A stretch of 64,000 nucleotides of DNA, from the NCBI GenBank assembly GCA_946811695.1, contig OX328126.1, forward strand, positions 9,450,361-9,514,360, read 5' to 3'. The stretch's first letter is position 1, and each line of letters starts with the position of its first letter. Below are positions 9,684-49,238 of the stretch, in pieces. Source of the DNA: Gonocerus acuteangulatus. Taxonomy: Eukaryota; Arthropoda; Insecta; Hemiptera; Coreidae. Both the position numbers and the translations under genes were made by a program. Below the pieces are notes generated by a model, which was not told the DNA's origin, ran no database searches, and saw nothing but the letters and a program-made list of their open reading frames with translations.

Positions 9684-10051
9684 TCTACTATATATTTGTC
9701 AAATACCACTCACTCACTCACTCACTGACCTATCATCGCCCAGCCCAAGCCGCTCGACAGAATATTTTGAAATTTTGCATGGACACTCCCTATATAACGT
9801 AGGCACTCACTAAGAAAGGATTTTCTGATATTCGAATTTTTAAGTATTTTTAGAGGGGTTTAAAGTTTGAGTTGGTTAGAGCAGGCAAGCCTAGGCAGCA
9901 AGCGTTGCTAGGACGATAACAGAACAGCTGTTACCGTACATTATCTATTTCATAGTATTATTTTTAATTTAGGTTAATTTACTCTATGATGGCAGTCCTT
10001 TGAATTACTATAAATAAACTGTCACGCATAGAGTTTTAATTGCGTTTCTTG

Positions 10052-10684
10052 GTCAGACCTTACATACCGCCTCCGACCATGTGTTATCAGTGTTTTCAAT
10101 TAAATCATTTCTCCTCTTCTTGTGAGAAAGATAAAATATGTGGGAAATGCACTGAAACCAGACATGAAGGGAATTGTAATGTAGTAAAATGTACTTTATG
10201 TGGAGAAGCTCATTTTTTCAAACAGTGTGAGCTATATTTAAAAGAAATAGAAATAAAACGGAAAATGGTTTATGAAAAACTAAGTTACCCCGAGGCAAAA
10301 AAGAGGTTAACTGTTGAAAAGATAACAACATATGCTCAAAAATCAAAACAAGTACAGAACATAGATGCTATTACTAATTTATCCGAGTCCATAAAAAGGA
10401 TTGAAATTAGCCTAGCTATTCTACAAAATATTATCCTGCAGAAGGAACGCTCCAGAGAGGAAAATGCATCGGTGTCCGTTATCCAGGTCAAGAAGGATCA
10501 AGCCGTTCAGTCAAGAAATCGCAGCCCAACGGAACCATCCCTCGGGGAGAAGACATCCGAAGAAGAAGATGTTTTGGAAGATGAAATATTTGTTAAAAAT
10601 CCACAAAATATTAAAACTCCTAAGGGCAAAAGGTCTAAAAGTGCGAACAAAGCTAAAAAAAAAGAAACAGGTAATTTAAAATGA
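10052..10684 (+). pseudogene. LINE ORF1 (gag-like), C-terminal part
   Basis: The element boundary falls just before codon GTC (VRPYIPPPTMCYQCFQLNHF), so the N-terminus is missing. It encodes Cys/His knuckles: C-x2-C-x4-H-x4-C at the start, then CGKCTETRHEGNC and CTLCGEAHFFKQC, the RNA-binding array of Jockey/I-type ORF1 proteins. A coiled-coil-like stretch (about residues 110-150) and a Lys/Glu-rich tail follow. It ends at TAA/TGA just before ORF2, which begins 58 bp downstream. The usual role is nucleic-acid binding in the retrotransposition particle. Confidence 0.85.
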
Positions 10685-10742
10685 ATTTAGCAGCTGTTAT
10701 ATTTTTTAATTTAATTGATTTTATTTTATTTCTTAATTATTC

Positions 10743-12281
10743 ATGACTATACTCCAGTGGAACATAAATGGCTTAAACGCGCATTTAAATGATTTAAAGT
10801 GCCTGTTGCGACATAAACCATTACAGATAATAGGACTCCAAGAAACACATCTGGTACCAGGTAAAAGCGTTAGCATACATAATTATTCTGTTTACAGAAA
10901 TGACTATTGTTTGGGAGGTAAAGCATGTGGGGGAGTTGCTGTGCTTGTTAAAGACAACACATACAGCGAACCCATTCGTTTATTGACAATATTACAAGCT
11001 GTAGCTGTCTCGGTGTACCTTCCTTTCCGGCTGACGGTTTGTTCTCTGTATCTTCCACCAAGTGAACCTATTGACGTACATGCAATTCAAGACTTACTCA
11101 CACAACTTCCAATCCCCTTTTTATTACTTTCTGATGCCAACGCTCTCAGTACTATGTGGAACTCATCAATTACAAATAACCGTGGACGACTTTTACAAAA
11201 TATATTTGAAGGATTAGACTTGCTCACTCTCAACACGAACTTACCGACCCATCTATGCCCACGGACAGGTACTTATTCAAATATTGACATATCTGTTTGC
11301 TCTTCTTCAGTTTATACTCGATTCGAGTGGGAAGTGAGCGACGACACCTACTCGAGTGATCATTTTCCTATAATTCTGACACTAACATCACAACCACCGA
11401 TATTCCAAACTCAGACTAGATATAATACAAAGAAAGCTGACTGGACCACATTTCAAGATCACATTATAACCACACAGAACTTACAACACACATACTCAGT
11501 GAAAGAACTAACAGAATTAATATTAGACGCAGCTGAAGATAGTATACCCAAAACCACAACTAAATACACTAAGACTCCGGTTCCTTGGTGGAATAATGAC
11601 TGTAGAAAGGCCACAAGCGAAAGGAAAAAGGCACTTCAATTTTTTTATAGGCATCCTTCTGATGAAGCACTCATTGACTACAAGAAGAAGAGGGCCAAAG
11701 CTAAGTGGGTAATTCAAACTGCCAAAAAGAATTCCTGGATAGACTTTGTAACACGGTTAAATTCTAATAATACTTCAAGTGACGTATGGACAGCTGTAAA
11801 CAAAATAATTCATAAAAAATATAAACCACCTATTACAGGACTTCAAAACAACGACGACATCATAACAGACCAAAAGGCTTTGTGCAACCTACTGGGGACG
11901 TACTTCGAAGCAACATTTAGTGATGTAAATTTTGACAGGGACTTCCAGGAATATAAAAGAAAAGTAGAATCTGAGACTTTAGAAGACCGAACTGACAGTG
12001 ATACGACTTTGGACGACTCAATAACCTTAAAAGAACTTGAACTAGCAATAAAGAAATCAAGTACAACTTCACCCGGACCGGACAGAATAACATACGACAT
12101 GATACAACACTTACCACCCACTACTCTCCCCCTTCTTCTGAATGCATTCAATGAGGTGTTTGAAGGAGGAATCTATCCTCACTCGTGGAACGAATCTATC
12201 ATAGTTCCGATTTTGAAATCAGGCAAGGATAAGAAAAACGTAACTAGTTATCGTCTGTTATATATCACTTTCAAAGCATAA
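10743..12281 (+). pseudogene. LINE ORF2, endonuclease plus start of reverse transcriptase
   Basis: Residues about 1-225 form an apurinic-type endonuclease: QWNING near the start, QETH with E34, SDANALSTMW, and SSDHFPI. After a basic linker come early reverse-transcriptase motifs (TTSPGPDRITYD, then IVPILKSGKD...SYR). The frame then leaves the family pattern after SYR. The palm motifs A, B and C (with the catalytic Asp pair) and the thumb are absent, and the next recognisable sequence is RNase H in another frame. An internal deletion of roughly 1 kb plus a frameshift is the simplest reading. The EN would nick target DNA and the RT would copy RNA at the nick. Confidence 0.9.
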
Positions 12282-13149
12282 GAAAAATGATCCTTGCTCT
12301 ACTCATTTCTACAATCATAACTTTAATAAAATAATATCAGAGAATCCTGAGGCTCTCTTCATTTTCACAGACGGATCCAAAACACAACACGGGACAGGCT
12401 CAGCAGCACTCATTGACGATAGAACATACCACACAAAATTACCAAATAACACTAGCATATTCACAGCAGAACTAAACGGAATTCTTTTGGCCCTTTCACA
12501 TAGTAAAAATACTAATAAACACATCATAATTTTCACAGATTCACTAAGCTCTCTTCTTTCCCTATCGGACATTTACAGTACTCATCCTATAATCACAAGC
12601 ATACTTTCACAACTATACTATCTACAGGACACCAACATTTATATAACTTTTGTCTGGATTCCTGGACATGACAACATTTCAAGAAGTACTGAAGCAGATA
12701 AGGAAGCTAAATTAGCAACGAGACGATCAACACAAGACGTTTATGACATGACTCGACAAGACATACATAATGTCATAAAACAACACATAATGAACAAGTG
12801 GCAAACTGACTGGACATACACACAAGACAACAAGCTACGGGAGATTAAGCCGACAATAGGAGCCTGGAGTTCCAGTATCCGGAATGTAAGACGAGAAGAA
12901 GTCGTGCTTACTAGACTAAGAATCGGACATTCACACTTGACACATTCATATTTAATGACAAAACAGGACAAACCGAATTGTACAATTTGCAATGTTCCAC
13001 TGACAATTAAACACCTACTTACAGACTGCAGAGAAAGAGAAAACATTGACTTACCAAATGATTTACACGAACTACTTACAGAGGACAGTACACACATAGA
13101 CAATATATTAAAATATCTGATACTTAAAAAGAAATTTCAACTTTTTTAA
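12262..13149 (+). pseudogene. LINE ORF2, RNase H domain and C-terminal zinc motif
   Basis: In frame from about 12262 it reads ...ENPEALFIFTDGSKTQHGTG, then FTAELNGILLAL and IIFTDSLSSLLSL: the D, E and D of an RNase H active site in order. WIPGHDNISRSTEADKEAK supplies the C-terminal RNase H signature. It ends with RREEVVLTRLRIGHSHLTHS and a C-x2-C...H-x4-C knuckle (CTICNVPLTIKHLLTDC). It lies in a different frame from 10743-12281, so it cannot be made as one protein with it. Confidence 0.88.
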
Positions 13150-43975: not shown

Positions 43976-45119
43976 TTTTATTTTATTTTTTTTTTTTTAC
44001 GGCGCTTCGACAAATCTGAGCCATTAGCGTCGACATCCCGAGCCCTCAGATGAAAAAATCCCTGCCGCCGCACAGTGTAACGAAGTAGTGGAGATTATGG
44101 ACAAAAATCATTAGTTATTTTCAAATAAACATTTTTATTAATTGAAATCAACTCAAAACAAGGTAACAACATTATAATAATGCACACTATACAGTTATAA
44201 TAATATTAGTAGAAATAATATTATTAATAACAATATTATAAAATATATTATAATTGTATGTAGTAGTAGTATAGTAGTAAATTATACTTATAGTGATATT
44301 GCCATAAAATAATAATATTTTACCATTTTCTATGTTTTTTTCTCTGCGGTCAACACGTTCCCACATTTTTTACATATAATATAGGAATAAACTGGCAGTT
44401 TTTTTAGTATTGCTTAATATTTCTTTAGGATCATCCTGCAGATCAAATTGAATCATTTGCCCAAGGATTAATACCATCTTCTTGGATTCATCCACATTTT
44501 TTTCAAATTTGGAAGAAAAAATGATGATGGATTTAAAAATAAAAATCTTTGGAATCGGCAAATTTCGGCAAACTAAATTGTCCTCAGTACATTATACTTG
44601 AGGTAAACTTTAACCTGTAAAAAACTTGAGATGTGTTCAGATGAAGTTTTTTTGCTATGGTCTATCAAAGTTTTGTACTTAAAAAAAATTTCAAAGACCA
44701 ATGAAGAATAATTCAGGATAAATAATATGGGAGTAATTACCCAAAATCAATTATATCAGATGAAAAAGGAATAGTTTTGATGTAATTTCCTTCGGATGAC
44801 TTAATAAAAACACTGTCCTATCTTCAACGAGAGATGCTCAAACTGATTGTAGGTATGAAACAGGTTTTAAAGACTTTGCCTAGTTTTTAATACTGCTAAT
44901 GTGTTTGTTGATCAAAATAAAAATAATATTTATTAGTTTTATAGGATTTTAATTCATTGAATAGTTTCTAAACTTAGCTAGAGGATTAAAAATTAAATAT
45001 AAGAAAACAGAAATTTAGGATTTTGTCCATTGGACGTTACACTGTGCGCCGGTGGGACTCGAACCCACTATCTCCCGCTTATGAATCTAAGGCGCTAGCC
45101 ACTAGACCATGGGAGACCC
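43976..45119 (-). mobile_element. SINE-C split by a Transib-like element
   Basis: A perfect 14-bp TSD CCTCCTTAAGTATT lies at 43962-43975 and 45120-45133. The 3' half (T-run, ACGGCGCTTCGAC, CCATTAGCGTCGACATCCCG) is at 43976-44070 and the tRNA head (GGTGGGACTCGAACCCACTA, GCTAGCCACTAGACCATGGG) at 45047-45119. Joining them across one copy of CGCCG restores a normal SINE-C. Confidence 0.92.
44071..45046. mobile_element. Transib-like (RAG1-superfamily) non-autonomous element, 976 bp
   Basis: Perfect 12-bp TIRs CACAGTGTAACG / CGTTACACTGTG and a perfect GC-rich 5-bp TSD CGCCG (44066-44070, 45047-45051). A 5-bp GC-rich TSD and CAC-start ends are Transib hallmarks. The heptamer is CACAGTG at both ends. 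At the left it is followed by 23 bp and ACAAAAATC; at the right, by 12-13 bp and ACAAAATC. This copies the layout of 23- and 12-spacer recombination signals. The interior is AT-rich. A 63-codon minus-strand frame (44370-44561) is not recognisable as transposase, so it would need a transposase in trans. Confidence 0.8.
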
Positions 45120-47411: not shown

Positions 47412-49238
47412 TAAAAGTCCGACTCGCAGGAACTGCGTCATCTTAGCGCGGTTCCAGTTTTTTTTTTTTTTTTTTTTTTTACGGCACATCTACATCTAGG
47501 TCATTAGCGCCGACATCCAGGGTGTAGCGAGCCGTGGGATGATAAAATTCCTGCCGGAGGTTGGGAATCGAACCCACCATCTCCCGCTTATGAATCCAAG
47601 GCGCTAGCCATTAGACCACGGGAGACCCCGGTTCTTGTTCATATCCCTATTCTCATTTGAAAAGCATAGAATAGAAACAGATAATATTTTCCTCGGCCTT
47701 TGTTCAAAGGGTTTTATGGCTATACCTGGGGTTAGGGTCGGGTCCGCAAGACCCTAGAAACCTCTTCTAGCGATACTTCATTTCATACGTTTCAATGAAT
47801 TGGAAAATATCAAAAATTTTCACATATTCCTGTGTTCTTTTACTATAGTAATAATTCTACAGATAACATCAATTAAAAAAGAAAATAAAAAAACCAACAG
47901 CATAAAGGCAATTGAAAATATTCAAAAGACGTCAACGAATCTTTTTCTCTTGGCAAGCTATATTTCTAACAATGAATTGTTTTTCTTATTTTGCCTAATC
48001 TGTTTTATTGTAAAATACATTATCCAACTATAAGCAATTAAAAAATAACAAGGAATAAAAACAGACAAAAAGAACAGTTCGAATAAGCAAAATCAATTAC
48101 TTTAATGTTTTAAGCACTTATTTCTCCGATTGACATCACCTAATCAAAACTTTCATCAGAACCTTTTTTGTAGAGCATTTAGTAAGCTTTCTAATGGTAT
48201 TCTTTCGTTTACCAAATTCTTAACCTTTTTCGAGATATTAAGGAAAATATATAAAGTTACCAAAACTTTTTATGTCTGTTAATAAAATATTTTATTCTAA
48301 CCCTTCCTTAACTCCAAACGTAACCAAAATTTCAACATATTAGTTTTAATGAAAGTAGAACATGCAAAAAATGTTTCAACTGAATCCCATGATTCTAAGT
48401 ACCCATACCAAAAACGGTATTCAAAAACTATTTTTCCAATTTTCTCGAAAACGGTTAAAGCTATCGCCTTGAAAATGGTTTCATTCGTTTTCCTAGCCCA
48501 AGAAGCCTATAAATAAATTGTTTTTCTTATTTTTCTTAACCTGTTTTATTTTCAAATACATTATCCAACAATAAGCAATTAAAAAATAACAAGAAATAAA
48601 AACCAGACAAAAAGAACAGTTCGAATAAGCGAAATCAATTACTTTAAAGTTTTAAGCTCTTATTTCTCCGATTGACATCGCCTAATCAAAACTTTCATTA
48701 GAACCTTTTTTTTAGAGCATTTAATAAGCTTTCTAATGGTATTCTTCCGTTCACCAAGATTTTCAACCTTTTTCGAGATATTAAGGAAAGTAAACAAAGT
48801 TACTAAAACTTTTTATGTCTGTTAATAAAATATTTTATTCTAACCCTTCCTTAACTCCAAACGTAACCAAAAATTTCTGATGAATGTAGAACATGCAGAA
48901 AATGTTTCAACTGAATCCCATGATTCTAAGTACCCAAACCAAAAACGGTATTCAAAAAATATGTTTCCAATTTTCTCAAAAACGGTTAAAGCTATCGCCT
49001 TGAAAATGGTTTCATTCGTTTTCCTAGCCCAGGAATCATATAAAACGAGTACTTAGAAGCTTATGAACTCAAAAACGTAAGCGTTACGATTTTTTTTGCG
49101 CGAATTTCGCCCCAAACGCCATTTTCCAGTAGGCGGATTTTGCTGGTTAACGAACTTGGCCTTTCAAATTAGACGAAGGATTTTTGTACCAAATTTCATC
49201 AAAATCGGACCATTCGTCTTCTATCTAGAGAGCGAACA

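Follow-up and report, generated by a model that had tools for sequence, protein, structure and literature searches.

A high-copy, gene-less element with V(D)J-like signal words at 13- and 23-bp spacers, probably derived from a Transib transposon

The element and its ends

The window (the whole 64-kb stretch of DNA that was analysed, from the bug Gonocerus acuteangulatus) contains a 976-bp element whose two 12-bp terminal inverted repeats (TIRs) match each other perfectly and which sits inside a tRNA-type SINE between two identical target site duplications (TSDs). Each TIR opens the layout of a V(D)J recombination signal sequence (RSS), namely a heptamer, a spacer and a nonamer, and the features are as follows.

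43999..44070, minus strand: part of a tRNA-type SINE left of the insertion, start approximate
44066..44070, plus strand: left TSD, CGCCG, perfect
44071..45046, no strand assigned: Transib-type non-autonomous element, 976 bp, one copy of a high-copy family
44071..44082, plus strand: left TIR, 12 bp, CACAGTGTAACG, with the heptamer CACAGTG at 44071-44077
44078..44100, plus strand: left-end spacer, 23 bp
44101..44109, plus strand: left nonamer-like word, ACAAAAATC
44336..44389, minus strand: decayed scrap of a transposase N-terminal frame (YSYIICKKCGNV...), more of which is retained in longer relatives
45018..45026, minus strand: right nonamer, ACAAAATCC, a variant of the family's commonest word ACAAAAACC, which equals the RSS consensus
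45027..45039, minus strand: right-end spacer, 13 bp, TAACGTCCAATGG
45035..45046, minus strand: right TIR, 12 bp, CACAGTGTAACG, with the heptamer at 45046-45040
45047..45051, plus strand: right TSD, CGCCG, perfect
45047..45119, minus strand: tRNA-related part of the SINE right of the insertion, end approximate

The perfect TIRs, the CGCCG duplication and the clean empty site in the SINE had been described in an earlier note on this DNA, and all three are borne out by a second reading of the sequence together with an alignment of SINE paralogues. Once the element and one of the duplicates are taken out, the joined flanks align to SINE paralogues within the window. At the insertion site the SINE copy at 31027-30927 equals the joined flanks in length, those at 47458 and 30262 are longer by one base just past it, and all three read CGGAG where the target copy reads CGCCG. 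The same note had left the right spacer at 12 or 13 bp; of these two values 13 stands, with the nonamer read as ACAAAATCC, and 12 is dropped.

The G+C content of the element is 26% vs. 35% for the window. A reading-frame scan of the element gives no long open reading frame and no encoded DDE transposase, and neither RAG1L nor RAG2L genes lie inside it. The resemblance of its ends to RSSs can be set against chance by counting heptamer-like sites (beginning with CAC, at most one mismatch) on both strands of the window: there are 50, and a nonamer with at most two mismatches at a distance of 11-13 or 22-24 bp accompanies just two, which are the two ends of the element. Elsewhere in the window, at 10040-13149, lies a degraded LINE of the jockey type, in which an endonuclease part and an RNase H-like part can be recognised. 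Among its named matches are sequences from spiders, a beetle and a mantis shrimp, together with a weak one from a pangolin and one from a bacterial bin.

The family across the genome

The genome searched comprises 1.106 Gb in 135 contigs. With the element as a DNA query it yields 1554 candidates, and the 40 that were scored gave 57 matches, most of the 40 being near end-to-end. These loci, drawn by body similarity (L001-L040), make up a first table of ends, in which the left-end counts refer to 37 loci, L010, L032 and L033 being without a usable left end. The right-end spacer is 13 bp in 40 of 40, all with the heptamer CACAGTG and a nonamer, which reads ACAAAAACC in 31. The left-end spacer is 23 bp in 35 of the 37 (the exceptions are L022 with 22 bp and L023 with 15 bp), and the left nonamer reads ACAAAAATC in 27. 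A larger set of loci (L001-L088 minus L042, which is the same place as L040; L089-L092 are also left out), in which ends scoring at least 54 were counted and L023 with its 15-bp left spacer thereby falls outside the count, gives a spacer of 13 bp in 58 of 58 right ends and of 23 bp in 61 of 63 left ends, with CACAGTG exact in 52 and 58 of them, respectively.

The ends can also be sought independently of the element body. A pattern consisting of CACAGTGTAACG, any 1-25 bases and GGACAAAAAYC, which permits spacers of 8-32 bp, finds 976 exact ends in the genome and 0 in the reversed control. Among the 100 of these 976 ends that were listed, all on contig C1, the spacer is 23 bp in 50, 13 bp in 49 and 16 bp in one (G000:C1:30081183-30081214). 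Read by eye, the nonamer is ACAAAAATC at all 50 listed long-spacer ends, while the 49 short-spacer ends divide into 38 with ACAAAAACC and 11 with ACAAAAATC. Inward-facing neighbours within 12 kb pair a 13-bp end with a 23-bp end in 23 of 23 cases among the listed ends; these pairs take up 46 of the 100, the remaining ends have no exact partner nearby, and three further neighbour pairs within 12 kb are not inward-facing. The genome search with both ends and the tabulation of spacers that the earlier note had proposed thus find the heptamer, the nonamer and the two spacer lengths kept across copies. What that note had named as evidence against itself, namely other copies without a conserved heptamer and nonamer or without a fixed spacer difference, is not the pattern among these copies and listed ends, of which 99 of 100 have exactly 13 or 23 bp.

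A few copies depart from this layout. L059 has a left spacer of 14 bp and the TSD CGATG on either side, and L023, with 15 bp, likewise has matching TSDs; such spacer variants may be deletions that followed insertion, or the copies may have moved in that form. In L016, three tandem right ends at 299, 412 and 525 (113 bp apart) stand on one side of a single element.

A target site in a tRNA-type SINE

Duplications and targets were tabulated for the two-ended copies of 500-2600 bp (n = 49). The 5-bp TSDs are identical in 29 of these copies, differ by one mismatch in 16 and by two or three in 4. Position by position, the 29 identical duplications have C in 26, G in 24 or A in 5, any base, C in 26 and G in 28, which corresponds to C[G/A]NCG. 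In 35 of the 49 copies the flanks, once joined, correspond to a single SINE site, with 20 copies lying one way round and 15 the opposite way, so that there is a strong target preference for one site in a tRNA-type SINE. The recurrent insertion point reads CACC/GGCGG/CAGG and is used in both orientations. In L011 and L030 both flanks read caccggcg up to the heptamer and the duplicates do not match, possibly as a result of recombination between two copies or between SINEs.

Assignment to Transib

Members of the family fall into two size classes, about 1.06 kb and 1.4 kb, and the longer ones are the more informative as to origin. A broken reading frame, on the minus strand relative to the window, is present in the copies of about 1.4 kb that share these ends; the 13-bp end lies on its 5' side and the 23-bp end on its 3' side. 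A profile of Transib N-termini was built from the protein of L076 (a Transib locus described below) and from 53 proteins related to it that are 600 residues or longer and cover the region. On this profile a composite remnant peptide assembled from several copies reaches 25.5 bits and the best of 200 shuffles 9.2; the unedited peptide of a single copy, L040, scores 19.7. The remnant resembles residues 55-151 of the Transib protein P0104, with the shared stretch GR-x-K-K-x-F...R-x-K-x-R. P0104 in turn matches the HzTransib chain 6pqn with an E-value of 1.5e-115 from residue 149 onward, i.e., this match begins beyond the N-terminal stretch to which the remnant is similar. In plain tblastn of Transib proteins against the collected loci, P0104 finds L043 at E 7.4e-4, the sole remnant-bearing locus to pass 1e-3, and L081, L084 and L095 give E-values of 0.003-0.01. 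Pfam and PDB searches gave nothing significant, either with pieces of the 1.06-kb interior or with the longer N-terminal remnant peptide. The 1.06-kb family and the window copy are further deleted and have a scrap of the transposase frame left.

Because a Transib-like N-terminal fragment is present in the 1.4-kb relatives and because the genome holds many Transib transposases, the family is most likely a non-autonomous Transib. The proposal of the earlier note, a non-autonomous Transib family with asymmetric, RSS-like ends, accordingly finds support in the kept ends, the G+C-rich 5-bp TSDs and the N-terminal fragment. With considerable confidence we regard the 976-bp element as a gene-less copy of a high-copy family with V(D)J words at 13- and 23-bp spacers, and as a likely deletion derivative of a Transib, dependent for its movement on a Transib transposase that acts in trans and would pair its unlike ends.

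Other Transibs of the genome and the search for an autonomous partner

Transib transposases are plentiful in this genome. A 70-residue Transib C-terminal motif, which matches 6pqn at E 1.6e-22, finds 684 candidates, of which 150 were scored with a best E-value of 3.7e-23, and P0104 finds 881 candidates, of which 70 were scored with a best E-value of 2.2e-113. The named relatives of these proteins are from insects and a barnacle. Matches to Transib transposases of several families are abundant in this one genome (the 684 motif candidates); autonomous Transibs are usually described as having one or few copies, according to the available part of PMC4411706.

No complete transposase was found between the family's ends among the loci and end pairs examined. 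Six end pairs of 2.5-5.2 kb, taken as candidate autonomous copies (pairs of 7.0 and 10.9 kb were left out), looked like the 1.4-kb element with inserts. L062 and L063, N-terminal matches with long open frames, proved to be the same non-autonomous element, and ten diverged N-terminal matches (L079-L088) revealed no further transposase part. A candidate 3' end beside C6:85935435, considered as that of a partner, is a different end, its putative border reading CACAGTG, 22 bp and CCAAAAATC. The family's ends are absent from the roughly 3.2 kb around each of the Transib loci L064-L075; L076 and L077 bear other ends, and L099 is likewise without those of the family. The autonomous relative with the same ends for which the earlier note had suggested looking was not found among L064-L077, L079-L088, L099 and the six long end pairs.

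At least two other Transib families of this genome have near-symmetric ends. Family A (L066-L071 and L075) has CACAGTG at both ends, with 5' spacers of 23 bp (two copies) and 3' spacers of 22 bp (three copies) or 21 bp (L066), measured to ACA-starting words (ACATAGGAC, ACATTGTAG) that are not RSS-like past ACA. Family B (L076 and L077), of about 3 kb, has the heptamers CACACTG and CACACAC and, in L076, spacers of 23 and 23 bp before ACAAAAGT, the 3' end of L077 being without ACA; both copies are inserted in the same SINE as the window family. L076 (G000:C31:78529800-78534300) encodes a near-intact Transib transposase with one in-frame stop between its 23/23 ends. Since families A and B are near-symmetric, there is no 13/23 rule common to all Transibs of this host.

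Comparison with known systems

Transibs N1-N3 of Anopheles are non-autonomous, like the window family. Transib5 of Drosophila melanogaster and Transib2, N1, N2 and N3 of Anopheles gambiae likewise have 12/23 (±1) ends with RSS-like heptamers and nonamers, as set out in the available part of PMC8355894, which credits these ends to Kapitonov and Jurka 2005. Compared by description only, the window family differs from them in its host, in its 976 exact ends and in a short-spacer end at which both words are mostly exact. Transibs with 12/23-like ends are thus already known as a kind, since PMC8355894 and PMC9435367, in the parts available, describe asymmetric Transib ends, and what we report is a new family of a known kind that stands out by its copy number and by its match to the signals. 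Searches of the open-licence literature, which were not aimed at copy number, gave no publication recognisable as being on this family. In the available text of PMC9435367 all subgroup I Transibs have asymmetric ends and subgroup II has both kinds, and in that of PMC8289069 most Transib families have symmetric ones. HzTransib of Helicoverpa zea (PDB 6pqn) belongs to the same transposase superfamily as the Transib relatives in this genome; its TIRs are given in PMC8289069 (available part) as symmetric with little or no nonamer similarity, unlike those of the window family.

The RSS consensus of vertebrates is CACAGTG plus ACAAAAACC (PMC8289069, available part), and the family shares with it the heptamer, the nonamer ACAAAAACC at the 13-bp end and the 23-bp spacer at the other end. 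The two differ in that the short spacer of the family is 13 bp and hence one base longer than that of the 12RSS (inside the ±1 used for Transib ends in the part of PMC8355894 cited above), in that its long-spacer nonamer mostly ends in TC rather than CC, and in that its signals bound a mobile element and not gene segments. ProtoRAG and the other RAGL transposons likewise have CAC-starting bipartite ends and 5-bp TSDs, and the ends of ProtoRAG (27/31) and AanRAGL (4/13) are also asymmetric (PMC8289069 and PMC9435367, available parts). RAGL transposons, however, encode RAG1L and RAG2L and have different second motifs, whereas the genome of the window is without a RAG1-type match over the cut-off.

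Pairing of the unlike ends and alternative readings

A plausible course of events can be put together by analogy. A Transib transposase acting in trans would bring together a 13-bp end and a 23-bp end, binding both and presumably reading the nonamer with its N-terminal domain. Its cuts would fall on the CAC border of either heptamer and so release the element. The flanking DNA would be left with a hairpin, and the released element would enter a C-[G/A]-N-C-G target that is opened with a stagger of 5 bp. For HzTransib, cleavage is reported to produce a hairpin in the flanking DNA and a blunt element end (PMC6941560, available part). A nonamer-binding-like domain with GRP has been placed in Transibs (PMC9435367, available part), but on the Transib N-terminus profile the nonamer-binding domain of RAG1 did not outscore shuffled sequences. 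This comparison thus lends no support to reading of the nonamer by the N-terminal domain, which is something that we infer. By analogy with the 12RSS and 23RSS, the short and long spacers suggest that each end is held in a different manner.

That all 23 inward pairs are 13/23 does not by itself show the 12/23-type pairing rule that the earlier note had considered possible, because copies inherit their ends by descent. It is about an even call that the family is a Transib derivative in which the 13/23 layout is simply the inheritance of a founder, the enzyme reading the 12 bp on the heptamer side and ignoring spacer length, with no pairing rule at all. The 37 two-ended copies represent a shallow, mostly unresolved burst (mean pairwise divergence 5.9%, 7 of 34 inner tree branches well supported), so that they carry the ends of one founder. 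The other Transibs of the host point the same way, being near-symmetric at 23 and mostly 22 bp in family A and at 23 and 23 bp in family B, and so do L059 and L023, whose 14- and 15-bp left spacers stand between matching TSDs, although deletion after insertion may explain them. Against simple inheritance, the nonamers and both spacers are maintained in the 1.06-kb and 1.4-kb classes alike, and 99 of the 100 ends listed in the body-independent search have exactly 13 or 23 bp. The stronger proposal, that an abundant living Transib lineage obeys a true short/long rule in which the N-terminal domain reads a canonical nonamer and only 13/23 elements are moved, seems to us possible but rather doubtful.

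It is very improbable that the partner is a RAG-like (RAG1L-RAG2L) transposon instead of a Transib. The short-spacer end does carry the exact words of the vertebrate RSS, but Transib transposases are plentiful in the genome and the remnant fits Transib N-termini. PF12940 (RAG1) has one match across the genome, at E 0.0355 and below the cut-off, in a search with no positive control among 14 control genomes, and this weak match, L041, was taken as noise. hAT elements make TSDs of 8 bp and CACTA elements TSDs of 2-3 bp. An origin in such a superfamily (hAT, CACTA or similar), with ends that are RSS-like by chance, would agree with an element that lacks a transposase and with the lack of an autonomous copy with the same ends among those examined, but is equally far-fetched in view of the G+C-rich 5-bp TSDs, which fit neither, of the remnant that matches Transib N-termini and of the conserved heptamer and nonamer.

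Significance

The origin of the 12/23 rule is described as open, and the RAG transposons of invertebrates as having unlike spacers (PMC8289069 and PMC8355894, available parts). With 976 exact ends, the exact RSS words at one end and near-symmetric Transibs alongside it in the same genome, the probably Transib-derived family described here makes the origin of this rule testable, and it lets the question be asked whether the 12/23 pairing rule predates immunity. If this Transib lineage does follow a short/long rule, the 12/23 rule of V(D)J recombination would have arisen before RAG and would not depend on RAG2.
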